From the NCBI GenBank assembly GCA_905339165.1, contig CAJPFH010000006.1, forward strand, positions 124,001-188,000: DNA of 64,000 nt, in the 5' to 3' direction. Shown here piece by piece: positions 9,621 to 48,605 of this stretch (its first letter is position 1; every line of letters starts with the position of its first letter). The DNA is from Flavobacteriales bacterium (GTDB lineage: Bacteria; Bacteroidota; Bacteroidia; Flavobacteriales_E; Vicingaceae). A model generated the notes under the pieces. The model did no database searches. It was not told the origin of the DNA and saw nothing but the letters and a program-made list of their open reading frames with translations. A program made the position numbers and the translations under genes.

Positions 9621-12600
9621 TTACCTTAACAAAGTAACATGTCCAATAAAGTTGTGATGCAGGTTTTTGTCTTTTTCCCAAACACTTGCTTTCCAAACAT
9701 AAACGGCACTATTCGCTACTTTTCCATTTTTGGCGATACCATTCCAACCTTGATTCAGGTCAGTAGTTTCCCAGATAAGTTCACCCCAACGGTCAAAAAT
9801 CTGTAAAAGGTATCTTTCAGTATCTATGCCAATACCCTTTGCAAAAAACACTTCATTTAAATGATCTTCGTCTATGGTAAATGCACTCGGAACAAAGTAG
9901 GTAAATGAACCATCAACTTTTACAAATTTGGTAATAGTATCGCAGCAGCCATAAGTGTTGCATACAGTAAGGAGAACTCCGTATTTACCAGGTTCTGTGT
10001 ATGTGTGTACCTCGTTATACTGGGTTGAGGTGTATCCATCGGCAAAATTCCAAAAGGCGGTATTGGCTCCATCAGAGGTATTTGTGAAAGTAATTTCGGC
10101 AGAATAGATATCGGTGCGGAATGGTGAGGGAAAAAAGTCGGCTATGGGAACAGGATAAACTGTTATTAAATTGGTTTTAGTAATGGAATTTTTACATCCA
10201 TTGCTGTCTGTAACCATTAATGTAACAGAATATGATCCGGCCTTGGAGTAACAATAACTTGGCATAAACCCTGTCCCGTTTCCACTATCTCCAAACGACC
10301 ATGAGTAGGAATCGCTCGTGGTTGCACTTAAAAAGTTAACACAAACGGGAGCACATCCATTTGTTGTGTCTACTGTAAAGTCTGCAATTGGTAATGGATT
10401 TACCGTAACGAGGGCTACCGCGTTATCGGTGCATCCGTTGGCATCGGTAACAGTAACTGAGTACTGACCGGAAGAAGCAGCATTAAACTGAATAGTTGCA
10501 GTATTTTGTCCACCGGGATTCCAAATGTAGAAGTAATTTCCACTTCCTCCAGATGCTTGTGCCGAAAGACTTACATTATCTCCCAAGCAAACACTAATGG
10601 CATCAGGGATAATAGAAACAGAAAGTACAGGTGGTTCTGTAATAACAATTACAGCAGAATCTACACATCCGGCAGAGTCGGTAACAACAATGTTGTATAT
10701 TCCGGCAGGCAGATTAGTTTCTGTAGGATTTGTTCCTCCTGAGCTCCAATTGTAAGTAAAAGGAGAGGTTCCTCCGTTTAAAGTAACCCCGGCCGAACCA
10801 TTACTACCACCAAAGCAAGAAACATGATTTATTACGTATGAATTTATGCTAAATGAATTTGAAAAAGGAACAAAAACAGTGGCAGTTTCTACACACCCGT
10901 TGGAATCAGTAACTGTAACGATGTATGAGCCCGTTGCCAATCCTATTGCAGTGGGAGTGGTTTGAATAGGGTTTGAATTCCACGAATAAGTGTAGGAGCC
11001 TGTTCCTCCGGTAGCGTTTACCGTGGCTGTGCCAATTTGCTGTCCGCAGATAGCAGGCGTTGCACTTGTGTTTAATACGATAGCTGAAGGTTCTGTAATA
11101 ACAACAGAGGCGGTGGCAATACACCCGTTGGCATCAGTAACGGTAACGGTGTAATTGCCGGGTGGTAAACCCGTAGCAGTTTGTGTAGTTTGCACTGGTA
11201 TACTATTCCAAGAATATGTGTAGCTTGGAGTACCTCCTCCAATAGTAACAGTGGCCGTGCCGTTATTAAAACCAAAACAAGTAACATTGTTATAAGAATT
11301 AATGTTGGCTGTTAAAACGGGAGGTTCAGAAATACTTACAGACGCGGTAACAGAACACCCGTTGGCGTCTGTAACGGTAACGGTGTAATTGCCGGGAGGT
11401 AAACCTGTGGCGGTTTGTGTGGTTTGTACCGGTACACTATTCCATGAATAAGTATAATTTGGCGTACCTCCTCCTGAGATAACAGTTGCTGTACCGTTGT
11501 TTAACCCGAAACAAGTAACACTCGTAAACTGGTTAATAGAAGCGGTTAACAAAGGAGGTTCTGTTATTGTAACATTTGCTGAAACGAAACACCCATTGGC
11601 ATCTGTAACTGTAACCGTATAGTTGCCGGCAGGTAAGCCTGCAGCGGTTTGAGTAGTTTGTACAGGGTTAGAGTTCCAAAGATATGTAAACGGAGCAGTG
11701 CCACTAGGGTTTGCTGTGGCAGTACCATTCATTCCTCCAAAGCAACTTACATTTGTTACAATGGTTGTTGTGGTAGGCAATGGGTTAACAACTACAGTAG
11801 CATAGGCGGTGTCTTTATTTCCCACACTATCAGTGGCAATTACCTGATAAGTAGTGGTATTGGGTGGGCAAACCACATGAGGCCCAGGACCAACGCCAAT
11901 ATTGGGTGTCCATGCATAAGTAACCGGCCCTGAATTTCCGGTTGTAGTAGCGGTAATGCTACCGCAAGAACCTGCACAAATTGTATCGTTGTTTACGCTC
12001 GTTGTAATACCGCAAGGGATAATATTAACAAGTATTGTATCGGAATCGGAATAACATTGGTAATTCACAATTAGTGTAACAATAAAACTTCCTGCTCCTG
12101 TAAAAATATGGGAGGGGTTATTAAGATTTGAAAAATTATTTACTCCGCTTCCCGGGTCTCCAAAATTCCAAGAAACCGATTGAGGAGTCCCGGAACCTGT
12201 ACAACTAGGGGGAGGGGTAACAAAGCTAAAAGTGGCTTCATAGCAATTATTCATGTTAATGGTTGCCGAAACAGTGGGTGGGAAAATACTAAAATAGCTA
12301 GCCGGAAAATTTGGTAAGCCCCCTAAACATTGGGTTCCTCCAGGAAGCATGATGGTGTTATCTACGTAACCACAGCCTACGCCTAATGTATTTGGGTTAT
12401 TTATTCGGGCAATACTATTGGCAAAAATTCGTGCGTGATATATTTTATTATCAGGTCCTAATTGAAGTGCTCCAGCCCAACCATTTGGTGAAGTGCCAAT
12501 TTGTGTTTTTGAAGCCACAATAGCCCCCGGAGAACCGGCACACATATTAAATTGGTAAATAATACAAGGTTGAGATTGGTTTGTATAAAGTCTGGATCCA

Positions 12601-41118: not shown

Positions 41119-42222
41119 TTATGCTTTAGCGGCTTTAAACTGGGGAGAAATGGCACGGTGCATTTCATCGTTCCATTCTTTGCCTTGTGCCAGTAACTGA
41201 CGAAGTTTTACAAAATCAATTTCACGGTCGTTTTTCGGCCCTTCGTTAAAGGCTCGGAAACCTGCTTTAGCTTCCGTCATCATGTTTAGTGCTAACCATT
41301 CGCGGCTGCTTTCCTTGTTCATATCCCAATGTTCCAGTTTTTTCTTACGAACCTCTGTTAGTGTTTTGTGCAGGCAATTTGGGAAGGTGTGTAATAGTTT
41401 TGCAATTAAATGATTTACGGTTTCATCTAATTTCGATAAATCTACAACTCCTTTTGCCATTAGTTCTTTTCCTTTTGCCAGTTCTTCTCCTGTTTTCATG
41501 GCTCCAAAAATAACTCTGCCGTATTCATCGGCATATTTATCAATGTTTACTAAAGGGTTTGCAATAAATTTTCCATCAACTTTTAATGCGGGAGCAATAT
41601 CTGTAATTAACCCAATATTCAAAGCCTGATGAGCTGTCCATGGTTCACAAAGAGTTAATGATGCCATGGCTCTTTCTACTCCAATGTATAGGTGTAAAAA
41701 ATCGGTTGCTCCGCCAATGGCAGCACTACCGTGTTTGGGGCCGGCTTGTCCAAAGCGAGCCAAATCGGAAGCTACCGTAAAGTCGCAAGCCATTCCAATT
41801 TCTTGTCCTCCGCCAATTCTCATTCCGTTAACCCGCGAAATAACCGGTTTTTCGCATTTTAGAATGGCCGAAACCATATCGTTGAACAAACGCATGTATT
41901 GTGAGTATTCTTGTGGGTTTCCTGAATAGTACTCTGCGTACTCTTTTGTATTGCCTCCGGTACAAAAGGCTTTATCTTCTACTCCGGTAAATACAACGGC
42001 TACCACACTTCTGTCGTTAGAGGCTTCACCAAAGGCTAAAATAATTTCTTTTACTGCTTTGGTGGTGTATGAGTTGTATTGCTTTGGATTATTTAAAATA
42101 ATCCATGCATTGTAAAGTTCTTCAACAGGTTTTCCATCGGTGTTAATGCATGGGCGTTTTTCATAAATAATATCGGTGTATTGGTAACCTTCTATCAGGT
42201 TGTGGTTTTTTAATGAATTCAT
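41119..42222 (-). CDS. oah: 6-oxocyclohex-1-ene-1-carbonyl-CoA hydrolase (ring-opening)
   Basis: Hydrates and hydrolytically opens the alicyclic ring to 3-hydroxypimelyl-CoA; the gene (also bamA) is the standard marker for anaerobic aromatic degradation. The 367-residue length fits. Diagnostic blocks are AWIILNNPKQYNSYTTKAVK (39-58), FTGVEDKAFCTGGNTKEYAE (78-97), VNGMRIGGGQEIGMACDF (131-148) and RFGQAGPKHGSAAIGGATDF (156-175). The gene heads a two-gene unit with dch. A terminator and the palindrome ATGATTGGTATCAT lie upstream, so it has its own promoter. Confidence 0.95.
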   Translation of the reverse strand: MNSLKNHNLIEGYQYTDIIYEKRPCINTDGKPVEELYNAWIILNNPKQYNSYTTKAVKEIILAFGEASNDRSVVAVVFTGVEDKAFCTGGNTKEYAEYYSGNPQEYSQYMRLFNDMVSAILKCEKPVISRVNGMRIGGGQEIGMACDFTVASDLARFGQAGPKHGSAAIGGATDFLHLYIGVERAMASLTLCEPWTAHQALNIGLITDIAPALKVDGKFIANPLVNIDKYADEYGRVIFGAMKTGEELAKGKELMAKGVVDLSKLDETVNHLIAKLLHTFPNCLHKTLTEVRKKKLEHWDMNKESSREWLALNMMTEAKAGFRAFNEGPKNDREIDFVKLRQLLAQGKEWNDEMHRAISPQFKAAKA

Positions 42223-42305: not shown

Positions 42306-42338
42306 AAAAGCTCGTTTTCCAACAGAAAACGAGCTTTT
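42306..42338 (-). terminator. strong intrinsic terminator upstream of oah
   Basis: AAAAGCTCGTTTTC and GAAAACGAGCTTTT form a perfect 14-bp stem with a 5-base loop; on the leftward strand it is followed by a T-run. It ends transcripts coming from the insert (or formerly had) before the oah promoter region. Confidence 0.8.
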
Positions 42339-42416
42339 GTAAAGAATATAAATTCTTCTTATTGAGTGAGTAGTTTAAAGGTTTTATACTCTGTTAAGGT
42401 GGTTGTTTACAACACT

Positions 42417-42505
42417 AGTACAGAACGCTTATTGTATTTGTGTTCGAGGGTGTTTTAAACACTTCGTTTATTTTACTCATCGGAAAAGTTTGTACAAAAT
42501 CTTTG
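42417..42505 (-). pseudogene. decayed duplicate of the had 3' end
   Basis: These 89 bases match the last part of the intact had gene (45724-45813) at about 79 of 90 positions, in the same orientation. The reading frame begins like the intact protein (KDFVQTFPMSKINEVFK) but a one-base deletion then shifts it to TPSNTNTISVLY and a stop. Homology ends abruptly on the right at about 42506. It marks the former junction of had with the oah region. Confidence 0.85.
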
Positions 42506-42563
42506 GTTTACGCTCGGGTTAGTTTCTACAGTCAAAAGGAGAAAAATAGAATATAGAATTTGA

Positions 42564-44114
42564 CTACTCTTTTACAAATCGTAATACGTGGGCATTATTC
42601 TTTTTTTGTAAATGCAACACATACAAACCAGAGGGCAATGCTTGTACACTTATTGGTTCTCCTGTATAAATACCTGTACATACAATTTGTCCGTTGATGT
42701 TTACTATACTATAAGGTGTAATATCGGTAATGTTTTTAAGCAGAAGATTTGTGTTGGTTGGATTAGGGTAACACATAGGTTTCTCATTTTTATACGGTAA
42801 TGTATTTGTAAACACCATATTACCATTGCCGTCCAATTTAATGATTAATGCTTTTGTTATATCCTTCTGATTATAATTGAACAAAGAAGTGTCTTTAGTC
42901 ATCACTCCTATTAACACTCCTCCATCTAAAGTTGTTTTCATACAAGTTACATAATAATCTACAGAATCACCGCCAATTATTTTTTGCCAAATAATTGTTC
43001 CGTTTGTGTCGGTCTTTACTACACATATTTTTATATTCCGATTATTGTTTATACAGATACCGTACATATTATCGCAATTATAGGTGCCTGCATAAAGAAT
43101 CTTTCCGTCATTACTGATATCTAAGGAATTGTAATAGGCGGGCATTTTACTAATTGAAGCATGATAAAATGGATATTGTAACATTTTATTTGCTTTTAAA
43201 TTTCCGTTCAGCATTATAATGCCCATATTACTGTAATCTTGATTATTCGGATATGTCCCATTTGTATGCACAGACAGGAGAGAAGTAGAGTCATCATAAA
43301 TTAATGCATGCCTAGGAAGAGAAGCAAACCACTCCGTTTGAAATCCTGAAAGATTTTCCTGAAATAAAATTGTATCAGTGGACTGAATGGTAAAATCATC
43401 TTTCTTGATTGGCACAGCAAATGAGTAGTAAATAAGAGTATCAAAAAAAGGAGGATTGTAATCAATGTTATTTAAACCGGTAATGTAGAGATATTTAGAG
43501 GAAGGAATATGGAGTAACTTTGGCAGAGAGATATCCTTATCAAAAGATACATGAGGAAAACTATCTATAAAAAGAGGTTGCAATGAATTATCCAAAAGCA
43601 GGCATAAGTCATAATCTGTTGACATATTGACGGAATCAAATTTCCACCCCGCATATATTAGTGTGTCTGTGTTGTATGACATAAAATCATAGGGAATATG
43701 TACTTGGGTAGGCGTGTACAATTCGAATGTTGCTATAATTTGTAAATCGCTATCTATTTTATAAAATACAGTAGAGAATTCCTTCGGAAGGGGTGTGTTT
43801 TTTAAAAGTTTCCCTCCCATAGCAAATAAAAAATTATCTTTTGAGAATACACTGATAAGGCGAACAGAATCTAGTTTTATGGCATTAATAATATTACCAT
43901 TTGAATTAATTTTACTCAAATAGGAGTGAGCAAAATCAATACTAGTATCCATCTCTGTATGGTTGAAAAAATAAAAACCATTAATCTCAGTAAATGCATG
44001 GGGAATATTATACTTATTAATTTCTCCTGTTTCTAGTATAAAACCTTGAGCATTTGTCAATAGACATGGTAGGCAAAACAAAATGCTCAGTATTTTCTGT
44101 ACAACTTTATACAT
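42564..44114 (-). CDS. secreted protein with type A T9SS sorting domain
   Basis: A 516-residue protein with a signal peptide (about 1-22, ILSILFCLPCLLTNAQG) and a middle part of repeated strand-rich units (YLYITGLNNIDY, DGKILYAGTYNCD, DGGVLIGVMTKD) resembling a propeller of the WD40/delta-60 kind. The end (PMCYPNPTNTNLLLKN ... GLYVLHLQKKNNAHVLRFVKE) is a type A T9SS sorting domain. No function is recognised. Its start overlaps the stop of the upstream lipoprotein gene by one base, so the two form a pair within the insert between the had copies. Confidence 0.78.
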   Translation of the reverse strand: MYKVVQKILSILFCLPCLLTNAQGFILETGEINKYNIPHAFTEINGFYFFNHTEMDTSIDFAHSYLSKINSNGNIINAIKLDSVRLISVFSKDNFLFAMGGKLLKNTPLPKEFSTVFYKIDSDLQIIATFELYTPTQVHIPYDFMSYNTDTLIYAGWKFDSVNMSTDYDLCLLLDNSLQPLFIDSFPHVSFDKDISLPKLLHIPSSKYLYITGLNNIDYNPPFFDTLIYYSFAVPIKKDDFTIQSTDTILFQENLSGFQTEWFASLPRHALIYDDSTSLLSVHTNGTYPNNQDYSNMGIIMLNGNLKANKMLQYPFYHASISKMPAYYNSLDISNDGKILYAGTYNCDNMYGICINNNRNIKICVVKTDTNGTIIWQKIIGGDSVDYYVTCMKTTLDGGVLIGVMTKDTSLFNYNQKDITKALIIKLDGNGNMVFTNTLPYKNEKPMCYPNPTNTNLLLKNITDITPYSIVNINGQIVCTGIYTGEPISVQALPSGLYVLHLQKKNNAHVLRFVKE

Positions 44115-45205
44115 TAATTATAGTTTGGATTGTTAACAGGTATAGCCGATGTCCATCTGAATACATTGTAGTATCTATAGTTAGATGGATAACACCCATA
44201 CACACTTTGTTGAGACGATGTATTTTGAATTGATCCTAAATCTATACTCAATAAATATGCACCCATAACCTTTCTTGGATAATAAGTTGTTTGCCAACTA
44301 GAAAGATAACCTTTGAGTCCATTTAATGATTGATTGAGTTGATTATAGTTAAGAGTAATATTACTTGTATAACTCCACAACCATTTTAAATTGTTTGATC
44401 CGAAGTAGTCAGGAGTTGTGTATCCGGGACAAACTGTGTTTGTGTGATCAATAATACTAACCCACCAAAGTGTATTTGGAGTTGGTTTTGGAGGATGGTA
44501 CTTAAAATTGGTGTAATAAACTGCATATAGTGGTGGATAAGTAAAATAATGTGTTAACTTCTTCTGAATATTATAAGCACTAGATGATGGACCATCATAA
44601 GCATCATACAAAATATAACTATCACCCGGCCCAAAATCAGTAGGTTCAAAATTGGGTTCCAAAATAGGAGCGTATGTAATTATTTCTACATGCATTTTAA
44701 ATAAATCATCAGAAACATCTTCGTCTACTTCTACGTCAATGGCATAAAAAAGGTTTGTGTTGTTATTCATAACATCTGTAATGGCTGAAGCAATAGAATC
44801 ATAACAATAAAAAATATTATGTGGGCGAGCGTAAAACTCACCCATAGTGTTTCTTCCGCCAAGAGGTATGTAAAAAATATATTTAGATGTTTCTACGCTA
44901 TCAACGGTATATTGTTGGGCAGGAGTATTAGCACGGTTTGCAGAAGCCTCAAGTGTCCAAACAACTTCTTCTATAAGCATGGTATCCCAAGTTGGCAAAA
45001 TAGTATTTTCCATATAGTTTGTAAAATCCACATCAAAACTATCTAAAAGATTATTAATACTCTCGTCTCTTTCTGGTGGTGAAAAACGAGCATTCGCATT
45101 TTCGGAGGTGTGCTGGGGTTTAATAAAATTTTCTTTTTTTTCTTTTTTACAGGCAAAAACGCACAGCAAAGCTATACAAATAGTAGGAATAATGAAATTT
45201 TTCAT
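44114..45205 (-). CDS. hypothetical lipoprotein
   Basis: A 363-residue protein with a lipoprotein signal: MKNFIIPTICIALLCVFAC followed by KKEKKEN, lipid on C19. The mature part is rich in Asn, Tyr and Thr with aromatic strands (HYFTYPPLYAVYYTNFKYH, LWWVSIIDHTNTVCPGY), no domain I recognise. It is coupled with the T9SS protein downstream (one-base overlap), suggesting a surface pair. Base composition seems somewhat more AT-rich than in the bcr genes on either side, in keeping with an insert. Confidence 0.68.
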   Translation of the reverse strand: MKNFIIPTICIALLCVFACKKEKKENFIKPQHTSENANARFSPPERDESINNLLDSFDVDFTNYMENTILPTWDTMLIEEVVWTLEASANRANTPAQQYTVDSVETSKYIFYIPLGGRNTMGEFYARPHNIFYCYDSIASAITDVMNNNTNLFYAIDVEVDEDVSDDLFKMHVEIITYAPILEPNFEPTDFGPGDSYILYDAYDGPSSSAYNIQKKLTHYFTYPPLYAVYYTNFKYHPPKPTPNTLWWVSIIDHTNTVCPGYTTPDYFGSNNLKWLWSYTSNITLNYNQLNQSLNGLKGYLSSWQTTYYPRKVMGAYLLSIDLGSIQNTSSQQSVYGCYPSNYRYYNVFRWTSAIPVNNPNYN

Positions 45206-45292
45206 AAATTGAGTTTTAGAGTTTAAATAGTCTATAAGAACAAAAGGAAGAAAAAATCAAATGACTTATATTTACTATTTCGGATTTTTATT

Positions 45293-45300
45293 TACTTTTG
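45293..45300 (+). promoter_or_regulatory. -7 promoter element (TACTTTTG) for the XRE regulator gene
   Basis: TACTTTTG matches TAnnTTTG and lies 19 bases before the ATG at 45319. Confidence 0.55.
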
Positions 45301-45318
45301 CGGTAAAAATATTTACTT

Positions 45319-45711
45319 ATGGAAAAAATAGAAATACCCGAAAGACTACATAAAATAATCAACAAAATAAAAGAGGCAAGAAAAAACAAGGGTTTCTCGC
45401 ATGAGTATATTGCGGAAGAGTTAGGAATCAGTGTTTCTGCTTATAATAAGATAGAAAGGCAGGAAACAAAACTAACACTTGAACGCCTGTTTCAGTTACA
45501 AGTCATACTAGAGATGCCTTTGGAAGAATTATTGGATTTAAAAGTCGAAAATGTATATAATCAACATATTACCGACCAAGCAGTAGGGCATCAGCAGATT
45601 GAAAATTTATATCAGGAAAATAAAGAAATAACTGAAAAATTAATTGAGGCGTATAAGGAGCAAATAACTTATTTGCGACAACGACTTCTATCAACAGAGA
45701 AACATGGCTAA
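45319..45711 (+). CDS. XRE-family helix-turn-helix regulator
   Basis: A 130-residue DNA-binding protein. The Cro/C1-type HTH occupies about 10-72 (IKEARKNKGFSHEYIAEELGISVSAYNKIERQETKLTLERL with the recognition helix SVSAYNKIE), followed by a coiled-coil tail (about 85-130, HQQIENLYQENKEITEKL), probably for dimerisation. It lies in the insert, divergent from the lipoprotein pair, and its stop overlaps the convergent had stop by 4 bases. It lacks the shikimate-kinase-like domain of BzdR, the XRE regulator of benzoate genes in Azoarcus. A role in bcr control is possible but equally it may serve only the insert. Confidence 0.85.
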   Translation: MEKIEIPERLHKIINKIKEARKNKGFSHEYIAEELGISVSAYNKIERQETKLTLERLFQLQVILEMPLEELLDLKVENVYNQHITDQAVGHQQIENLYQENKEITEKLIEAYKEQITYLRQRLLSTEKHG

Positions 45712-46769
45712 TAATCAGGTACCAGTACAGAGCGTTTATCGTATTTGTGTTCCAAAGTATTTTTAAACACCTCGTTTATTTTACTCATCGGAAAGGTTTG
45801 TACAAAATCCTTGATGTTCAGTTTTCCGGAAGCAATTAGTTCCACCACTTCGGGGTATAGTTCGGGTTTGCAGCCCCAGGTGCCAATAAGTTTTGCATCG
45901 AAAGCCATCAGGTTGCTTAAACGAACCTCGAGTTTGTTCATGGTAAAACCTACAATGCTTAAGGTAGAGGTAAAAGTAATGAGGTTAAAGGCTAATTCCT
46001 GACCGGGTGCAGTACCCGAAAATTCAAAAATTTTCCAACCATATTTTGAGGTGCCTAGCTGTTTGGCAATTTCTTTTACTTTATTTTTTATTTCCTTTAG
46101 GTCCAAACCTTTTGAATTAAGGGTAGCATCTACTCCGTTCTTTTTAGCGGCCTCTAATTTGGCATCGTTAATATCAATTGCCAACACTTTTGCCCCCATA
46201 ATGTTGGCTATTAAGGCACCATATACGCCCACTCCTCCTACGCCAATGCAAATGGCTAAATCGTTTTTTTCTAATTCTGATTTTTTAATTACTTGGTAAG
46301 GCGTAGAAATGGCATCGGCTATAACGGCTAGCTCTTCCAGTTTGTAGTTAGATAAAACAGCATCGGGTACTACACACAAATATTGGTGTGGCACCACAAT
46401 GTGCGAAGCAAACCCTCCGTGAAAATCGTTACCGGGCATAAGCTGATGTTGGCACATATTGCTTCGGCCTTTATTGCATAATTCGCAGTTTCCGCAAGGA
46501 AGAACGGCCGGAATAATTACATTTTTCCCTTTCAGGTGTGCCGGGCCTTCTACAACGGTTCCGCTAATTTCGTGGCCTAAGGTAAGCGGAAAATCTTTTT
46601 TTGTACGAACCCCATCGTGCCAAAAACTAAGGTCGGTATGGCATACCCCACAACCGGCTACTTTTATCAAGGCTTCGTTTTCCGATACGGTGGGTAAGGA
46701 ATTTTCTACTTTAACAAATTCGGCCTTTAATGCAGTAGCTTGCCATTGATAGATTTTTGAAATGCTCAT
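45708..46769 (-). CDS. had: 6-hydroxycyclohex-1-ene-1-carbonyl-CoA dehydrogenase
   Basis: Oxidises the Dch product to 6-oxocyclohex-1-ene-1-carbonyl-CoA with NAD. The 353-residue protein is a medium-chain zinc alcohol dehydrogenase: catalytic zinc residues C43 (GCGVCHTD) and H66-E67, structural zinc cysteines C92, C95, C98 and C106 (CGNCELCNKGRSNMC), and the NAD loop GVGGVGVYGA (about 176-185). FWHDGVRTKKDFPLTLGHEI resembles known Had proteins. The specific substrate is inferred from clustering with dch and oah. It is the last gene of the bcr operon; its 3' end overlaps the XRE gene and a broken copy of it lies near oah. Confidence 0.87.
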   Translation of the reverse strand: MSISKIYQWQATALKAEFVKVENSLPTVSENEALIKVAGCGVCHTDLSFWHDGVRTKKDFPLTLGHEISGTVVEGPAHLKGKNVIIPAVLPCGNCELCNKGRSNMCQHQLMPGNDFHGGFASHIVVPHQYLCVVPDAVLSNYKLEELAVIADAISTPYQVIKKSELEKNDLAICIGVGGVGVYGALIANIMGAKVLAIDINDAKLEAAKKNGVDATLNSKGLDLKEIKNKVKEIAKQLGTSKYGWKIFEFSGTAPGQELAFNLITFTSTLSIVGFTMNKLEVRLSNLMAFDAKLIGTWGCKPELYPEVVELIASGKLNIKDFVQTFPMSKINEVFKNTLEHKYDKRSVLVPDY

Positions 46770-46787: not shown

Positions 46788-48605
46788 TTACTGGGCAGGA
46801 ACAAGATGCCACGTTACTGTTTTCAGTTTGGCTTCTAAATGGAGAAGGTCAGTTTTAAAAGAGGAAATAATTTTTTCCGATTCTTCTTTCATTTCCGGAA
46901 TCAAATTTTTGTAGTATTCTATACCTGAAAACAGATTTTCTTTAAAACTTGCAAAATAACTGGCTTCTTTAGGAGTAGCGGGTTCTAACAGGTTTTTAAT
47001 AAGATTTTTCAGATAGTTAATGTAGAGTTCCAACTCCTTAATAAACATATGTGGCCTGTAAGCATCGTTAAGCAAATTAATTCTGCCATAAATATGGTCA
47101 ACCATTTCTTGCAAACTGGCTATTTTGCTAAAGTAAGCAATGTTTGGCCCGGGGCAGATAGAAATTTTATTTTCTGCTTTAATGGTTGTTATTTGATAAT
47201 TTATTTTTACCGAGTTACCCAGTCCGTTGCAAATACACTCTTTGTTTGTAATTTTTCTGAACTCTATCTCATGTCTTTCCGGTGGCAATTTTTTGCTGTC
47301 TAATTCTGCTAATTTTAATTTCTGATATTGGCGAGAAGCTGTGCAAATAGGCATTTCTGTAAATTCCGTATTAAATTCCAGATACCTGTTAGGGCAAGAA
47401 CTTCCCGGTTTTCCTGCAGCAATTCTTTCTTCTTTTTCTACTTCAATAGAATTCCCCCTAATGGAATTAAAAGGAACTCCTAGTGGAGAAACCTCACTTA
47501 AAAACACATCTTTTTCGGTGGCTTTACAAAGTAGTTGCAGTGTTTCTTCGTCTACGTTGGTAACCTCCGGAACTAATAAAAAGGGAGTACCCCAGCCCAC
47601 AGAGTCTACGTTATAATAACGAATTAAAAACTCGTGTTCGGTAGCGGTTCCTACTCCTCCCTGAACGGTAATATTGGTAGATAAGGGCGAAGAGGTATGG
47701 TTTTTACCTTCTCGGATCCAAGCTTCCTTACACATTTCGGAGAGTTCTTTTACCAACTCATCTTTTTTGTTTTTAAACTCTTCCAATATAGGTCCCAGTA
47801 AATATCCGTCCGAAGCAAAGGCATGTCCTCCGCAGTTTAAACCCGATTCAATTCGATATTCCGAAACCCAAATGCCTTTTTTGGCAAACATTTTTCCTTG
47901 AATTAATGCCGAGCGATAATCACTAACTTTTAGAATAATTTTCTTTTTTAGTTCTCCGTTCTCATCGGGGAAGAAGTCGGGAAAGTTAGCAGTGTATGTA
48001 TATAGTCTGGGATTCATTCCTGCTGAATAAACTAATGACGCATTGAGTGTGCTATTGGCAAAACCTCTTAAGGCTGCGTGTGCATCATTGTATTCTACAG
48101 GTAATATTTCCTTGTTAGCGTTGTAATTTGGGCTATCCAACTTGGTCATAATGTTTACATCAATAGTACCGGCTTTTATGGTGTTTAAAATGTAATGAAG
48201 AATCTCTTTTTTTTCTTCATTGCCGGAAGATGCAACATATTTTTCGTAGGCTTTTTTAAGAGGAGAATGATTGGGAAGTAGGGAGAAATATTTTTTTGCT
48301 TTTTCTCCACCGTTCTCAATAGAATTAACCACCTCCTTAAACTCTAAATCTACTATTTTAGCAATAATATTGAGGTATGCAGTAATTCTTTTTGCTCTAA
48401 AATCTTCTTCTTTATTTGTAATTTCCTCGTAAGGGAAATTATATTTTTTACAGTAATAGGCACTCAATCGTTCAAGCAATTTATCGTCTCCCAACGAAAG
48501 AACAGAAGAAATACCTAGCGGAGCAACCTTTACGGGAGTATCAATCGAAAAGGCTATTCCCATAACAGGGATATGGAATGTGTGGGCTGTTTGTGTTGGG
48601 TTCAT
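46788..48605 (-). CDS. conserved protein of unknown function, flavin TIM-barrel-like with cysteine cluster
   Basis: A 605-residue cytoplasmic protein without a name I can support. Segments HIPVMGIAFSIDTPVKVAPLGI near the start, GLNCGGHAFASDGYLLGP and TVQGGVGTATEHEFLIRYY (about 310-345) look like the phosphate/flavin-binding loops of nitronate-monooxygenase or IMPDH-type TIM barrels. Cysteines in SSCPNRY, MPICTAS, ECICNGLG and SICPGPN (about 405-500) could hold an iron-sulfur cluster, and the last 100 residues are helical. It lies between the thiolase and had with gaps of 12 and 18 bases, so it belongs to the operon. A redox role, perhaps in supplying electrons, is speculative. Confidence 0.6.
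   Translation of the reverse strand: MNPTQTAHTFHIPVMGIAFSIDTPVKVAPLGISSVLSLGDDKLLERLSAYYCKKYNFPYEEITNKEEDFRAKRITAYLNIIAKIVDLEFKEVVNSIENGGEKAKKYFSLLPNHSPLKKAYEKYVASSGNEEKKEILHYILNTIKAGTIDVNIMTKLDSPNYNANKEILPVEYNDAHAALRGFANSTLNASLVYSAGMNPRLYTYTANFPDFFPDENGELKKKIILKVSDYRSALIQGKMFAKKGIWVSEYRIESGLNCGGHAFASDGYLLGPILEEFKNKKDELVKELSEMCKEAWIREGKNHTSSPLSTNITVQGGVGTATEHEFLIRYYNVDSVGWGTPFLLVPEVTNVDEETLQLLCKATEKDVFLSEVSPLGVPFNSIRGNSIEVEKEERIAAGKPGSSCPNRYLEFNTEFTEMPICTASRQYQKLKLAELDSKKLPPERHEIEFRKITNKECICNGLGNSVKINYQITTIKAENKISICPGPNIAYFSKIASLQEMVDHIYGRINLLNDAYRPHMFIKELELYINYLKNLIKNLLEPATPKEASYFASFKENLFSGIEYYKNLIPEMKEESEKIISSFKTDLLHLEAKLKTVTWHLVPAQ

Follow-up and report, generated by a model that had tools for sequence, protein, structure and literature searches.

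Genomic islands that sit at the 3′ end of a protein-coding gene, guaA for example, bring in cargo genes, restore the end of that gene and carry an integrase. The e14 element also carries an integrase of its own. It is a 15 kb prophage of Escherichia coli that gives icd a new 3′ end, with a 163-bp copy, icd′, left behind (PMC6379469). Here we describe a locus, found in the 64 kb stretch of DNA that we analysed (the window), which resembles e14 and phage 21 at icd: it too looks like an integration at the 3′ end of a metabolic gene, with a supplied tail and a displaced fragment that persists as a direct repeat (PMC6379469). Unlike the prophage e14, the present insert is 3.3 kb long, lies on a contig without an integrase, hosts no phage genes and is fixed in two species. 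It also differs from the guaA-type islands, in that the gene beside the seemingly restored end is a convergent XRE regulator.

The window lies on contig C6 of a 3.16 Mb genome in 136 contigs. It hosts an anaerobic aromatic-ring pathway of the benzoate type, whose genes run along the minus strand in the order thiolase, a 605-aa gene (46788-48605, no Pfam or NCBIfam match), had, the insert, oah and dch. The had gene (45708..46769, minus strand), which encodes 6-hydroxycyclohex-1-ene-1-carbonyl-CoA dehydrogenase, is complete (TIGR03201, 450 bits against a cut-off of 339), and its product ends in the canonical VLVPDY; a comparison of tails gave VLVPDF in most relatives. On the far side of the insert is oah (41119..42222, minus strand; TIGR03200, 602 bits against a cut-off of 464), which encodes 6-oxocyclohex-1-ene-1-carbonyl-CoA hydratase and is the ancestral neighbour of had, as judged by the adjacency of the two in relatives. 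The locus shows a catabolic operon split by surface-protein DNA with the interrupted enzyme kept, and the old gene end remains as a scar open to comparison across species. On its own, this had-tail scar is a modest finding.

From the had side, the insert consists of an XRE regulator, a lipoprotein and a T9SS-exported protein, followed by an orphan had tail. These are the three genes that the original prediction had named, and our searches bear it out. The regulator (45319..45711, plus strand) matches HTH_3/XRE (PF01381, E 1e-12) and has a coiled tail. The 363-aa lipoprotein (44114..45205, minus strand) belongs to a rare family and gave no family match; its structural model was too poor (pLDDT 40) for a fold to be proposed. 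The 516-aa T9SS-exported protein (42564..44114, minus strand; TIGR04183, PF18962) has a type A sorting domain at its C-terminus (TIGR04183, E 4e-10, 39.6 bits against a cut-off of 23). As in T9SS cargo of this type, the sorting domain is C-terminal in both species that host the insert. The protein differs from the usual cargo in its divergent body, which is beta-rich and propeller-like in a model of low confidence, and in being encoded together with a rare lipoprotein and a regulator.

The insert is bracketed exactly by direct repeats. As had been claimed from the letters of the window, the 3′ end of had is repeated on the same strand with a frameshifting one-base deletion: when the window is compared with itself using BLASTN, 42414-42505 pairs with 45721-45813 over 93 columns (87.1% identity, E 1.3e-24). 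The intact copy (45721..45813, minus strand) covers codons 320-350 of had. The orphan (42413..42505, minus strand), at a distance of 3.3 kb from the intact had, covers the same codons with one base deleted and has no had body attached. The local alignment of the two has 11 substitutions and a one-base gap; over 93 codon columns there are 12 substitutions and the missing base. With its frame restored the orphan reads KDFVQTFPMSKINEVFxNTLEHKYNKRSVLV, and the intact copy has D for N. The upstream edge of the repeat, at codon 320, is sharp, and the similarity extends no further into had: no had sequence upstream of this codon was found beside the orphan when the window was aligned with itself. Downstream the orphan finishes at codon 350 of 353, and the canonical PDF/PDY end is missing from it. 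No tRNA or Rfam family was found at the borders of the insert. The only further direct repeats detected by the self-comparison of the 64 kb are internal ones of a single long gene at 10.9-11.7 kb; these (10869-11727) are inside a 1262-aa surface-type protein.

A comparison with relatives shows that this is a gain. Among 76 relatives with both had and oah on the fetched contig, the two genes are within 250 bp of each other (median 28) in 63, which provides the empty sites that the original prediction had anticipated. The insert is present only in the sister species (L032, G001), a Flavobacteriales MAG and the nearest named relative, with the same XRE/had and T9SS/orphan-tail junctions; the flanks of the two species have about 93-96% identity. 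The genus is sampled by two genomes, both of which carry it. Since the insert and both of its junctions are common to these two species and absent in the relatives, it goes back to a single gain, older than the separation of the two species.

In the remaining 13 of the 76, unrelated genes of 0.7-1.8 kb lie between had and oah (L033, L041, L046, L056, L069, L072, L075, L081, L085, L099, L101, L104 and L110). These are independent gains in other Bacteroidota, some of them of a single gene (L033, L041, L046, L069, L085, L101 and others), and several are of T9SS or outer-membrane proteins. They are similar to the present insert in that they use the same junction and often bring exported proteins, and they differ from it in lacking a copy of the had tail beside oah. 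In fact no such copy was found on the oah side in any of the 76 relatives; one match alone exceeds the shuffled controls, a marginal one of 32 bases in L069, directly after had. Two other loci deserve a mention. In L195 (G173), had appears broken mid-gene by a short frame-shifting deletion and is about 1.2 kb from oah. In L042, a 140-bp intergenic repeat (11044-11183 and 12304-12441, 87% identity) follows both had and oah, and extends the had reading frame with SPTPSEGE.

What kind of copy is the orphan? Relative to the had of its own genome, 10 of the 12 substitutions are at third codon positions (binomial p 5e-4) and 11 of the 12 changes are synonymous, leaving a single residue change. Relative to the sister's had, third positions account for 7 of 8 substitutions (binomial p 3e-3). 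As nearly all of the differences between the tails are synonymous, it follows that both were still coding as they drifted apart, and the orphan is probably what remains of a second had that worked, rather than a local duplicate that has decayed. The earlier description of the orphan as decayed is accurate for the one-base deletion, but is otherwise too strong for a copy that has changed in this way. The orphan is nearest to the had of this genus (8-12 differences of 92 bases, compared with at least 17 for any other had), therefore the second had would have been a close allele and not a distant gene. The repeat is short, however, and its 93 bases offer limited information on this.

These figures bear directly on the alternative that the original prediction had offered, a local partial duplication: a copy of the last 31 codons of had would have arisen along with the insertion of the module, and would have decayed since. 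It is the simplest event, and it fits both the proximity of the orphan to the had of its own genus and the single difference between the orphan's first 51 bases and the sister's had. That said, it does not lead us to expect so synonymous a set of changes. Neutral decay after a local duplication predicts about 7-10 changes at first and second positions, and 1 is seen; the probability of this is 0.0005-0.007 if half of the third-position changes fell on the orphan branch and 0.02-0.08 if only 30% did, so that the strength of the test hinges on how these changes are shared between the two branches. Furthermore, 8-12 of 92 bases separate the orphan from had, a greater divergence than that between the had genes of the two species (27 of 1059). 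The full alignment of the copies, at 12 substitutions and one gap, hence points away from a local duplicate, and we consider this alternative unlikely. Taken as a whole, the orphan and the insert look like the scar of acquired DNA rather than of a simple local duplication.

A second functional had, and with it the synonymous divergence, would also result from a tandem duplication of the whole gene in the ancestor of the genus, if the module then took the place of the second copy except for its tail. We regard this as improbable, since none of the fetched loci has two adjacent full had genes and nothing of had upstream of codon 320 is left beside the orphan.

The explanation that we tentatively prefer is a replacement of the had tail. 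The module, one regulator and two exported surface proteins, would have come into the genus together with a had 3′ end, and one crossover, somewhere in the final ~90 bases of had, would have placed it in the chromosome. The resident had body would have received the incoming tail, which would now form the intact end beside the XRE gene; the old tail of the resident would have been displaced to the far side of the module, beside oah, where it would have turned non-coding and lost one base. Both the single crossover and the assignment of the resident tail are inferred. A now lost integrase, an integrase acting in trans or general recombination are candidate routes. A single crossover of an incoming tail gives precisely the layout seen, with an intact gene, cargo and an old tail. 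The mostly synonymous tail differences count in its favour, as simple local duplication and decay does not predict them. It is weakened by the lack of a canonical PDF end on the orphan, whose 3′ edge may therefore not be a natural gene end, by a contig without an integrase, by the absence of the had tail from phage, plasmid and viral sets, and by there being no other orphan among the 395 genomes of the class that were searched.

Where along the tail might such a crossover have occurred? Against the sister's had, the orphan differs at 1 of its first 51 bases and at 7 of its last 42 (Fisher 0.02). With the breakpoint left free this unevenness is not significant (permutation p 0.07-0.33), and we have dropped the crossover point that it seemed to indicate.

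The evidence for a mobile element is mixed. The original prediction had reported no integrase or transposase, and this holds on a larger scale: no tyrosine recombinase was found in the insert or on its contig, no IS copies were found at the insert borders, and the genome has no IS3-type transposase of the kind seen at the border in the sister species. Four tyrosine recombinases are present in the genome, on contigs C12, C14, C18 and C28. Searches for the had tail in viral contigs, phages and plasmids found none. Of 395 genomes of the class, 50 have had, and a search of all 395 brought up no further orphan of its tail. The idea of an element that integrates at the 3′ end of a gene and restores its tail is therefore partly supported, by the insertion, the empty sites and the synonymous pattern, but an integrase and a free element were not found, and we do not class the insert as an integrative element.

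With no integrase on the contig, no had tail in the phage, plasmid and viral sets and no other orphan, allelic import is a serious rival to the replacement of the tail, although we think it doubtful. The had-XRE-lipoprotein-T9SS segment of a related lineage would have replaced the resident had, by homologous exchange upstream, and would have been joined by chance microhomology inside the resident tail, leaving the orphan. This accounts for the synonymous divergence without an integrase. The 13 relatives with other genes and no repeats between had and oah suggest that simple gain is common here, and the upstream edge of the orphan has CAAAG in common with the sister's had. The 605-aa gene is also consistent with an import: among the fetched pathway loci it is beside had only in this genus, with relatives in 117 of 395 genomes of the class, thus both sides of had have been rearranged in this genus. 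On the other hand, an import requires one non-homologous junction although oah offered homology, and it predicts an even divergence along the orphan, compared with the weak trend that is seen. The 605-aa gene might conceivably have arrived with the insert as one block, though it is a common gene in the class.

The two copies of the insert have evolved in a mosaic fashion. Beyond the insert, the DNA of the two species is about 89-100% identical. Within it, identity is 88-100% for the XRE gene and the front half of the lipoprotein gene, with 73% for the intergenic stretch between them. Identity then drops abruptly over a block of about 1.9 kb (42650..44600), to 43-62% at the nucleotide level (77% in the last stretch), and climbs back to about 80% at the T9SS sorting domain, which in the sister's protein scores just below the Pfam cut-off. 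The lipoprotein is accordingly near-identical in its N-terminal half and divergent in its C-terminal half. Surface proteins that are exchanged or that diversify fast give this kind of mosaic. As the two species have the ends in common and differ over the 1.9 kb core, one might imagine an integrase-less exchange site for surface-protein modules, with fixed ends and a middle swapped between lineages, which we think is a long shot. The fixed ends of such a site would be the XRE gene with the first lipoprotein half on one side, and the T9SS sorting domain with the had tail on the other.

The sister species has also changed at the orphan itself. Its tail is cut after about 50 bases, where it runs into the C-terminal end of an IS3-type transposase (PF13683, E 1e-12; L032 14231-14440), and the left arm of a terminator found in our window has been lost. 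No other copy of this transposase end was found in either genome. We read the relic as a later event, an IS insertion with a deletion, once the two species were separate.

The arrangement of the insert has a logic of its own. The XRE gene is convergent with had, their stop codons overlapping by 4 bp, and divergent from the lipoprotein gene, with an AT-rich (21% GC) intergenic region between (45206..45318) that is likely to be a shared promoter/operator region for the two. The T9SS gene overlaps the lipoprotein stop by one base. A strong intrinsic terminator with a 15-bp stem (42306..42338, minus strand, z -4.8) lies 3′ of the orphan tail, so the lipoprotein-T9SS unit appears to stop before oah, which would then need a start of its own. 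The module is probably a self-regulated surface-protein unit, in which the XRE regulator controls the divergent lipoprotein-T9SS pair and the terminator shields oah from the transcription of the module.

The insert has no other copies in its own genome, and the trio of genes was not found elsewhere with other gene ends, as it had been proposed it might be. Only the lipoprotein-T9SS pair recurs, in one genome (G007), where it adjoins pyrG, without the XRE gene or had, and no direct repeats flank it. Among the genomes searched, the lipoprotein family is limited to this genus, G007 and one marginal match. It was not found in viral contigs or plasmids, nor were relatives of the T9SS protein found in viral contigs. 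A phage-repressor role for the XRE protein was rejected, with weak, short matches only in phage records and PHROGs and none in viral contigs, as was a role in a defence system, for which we found generic HTH matches only.

The relatives of the XRE regulator tell us more about its usual company. They form a small group. In all 15 loci the regulator gene and a neighbour stand head to head, and a signal peptide is predicted for 10 of these 15 neighbours, compared with 9% of pathway-locus genes under the same predictor, a rough home-made rule. For the six closest relatives all of the neighbours have one. If this pairing with genes for secreted proteins holds, it offers an easy way to look for surface modules in Bacteroidota that are regulated and variable. 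Head-to-head arrangements with secreted or lipoprotein genes can be seen in L136, L137, L138, L139 and L167-L178, and G006 has three XRE pairs, one of which faces at least four tandem T9SS-type genes.
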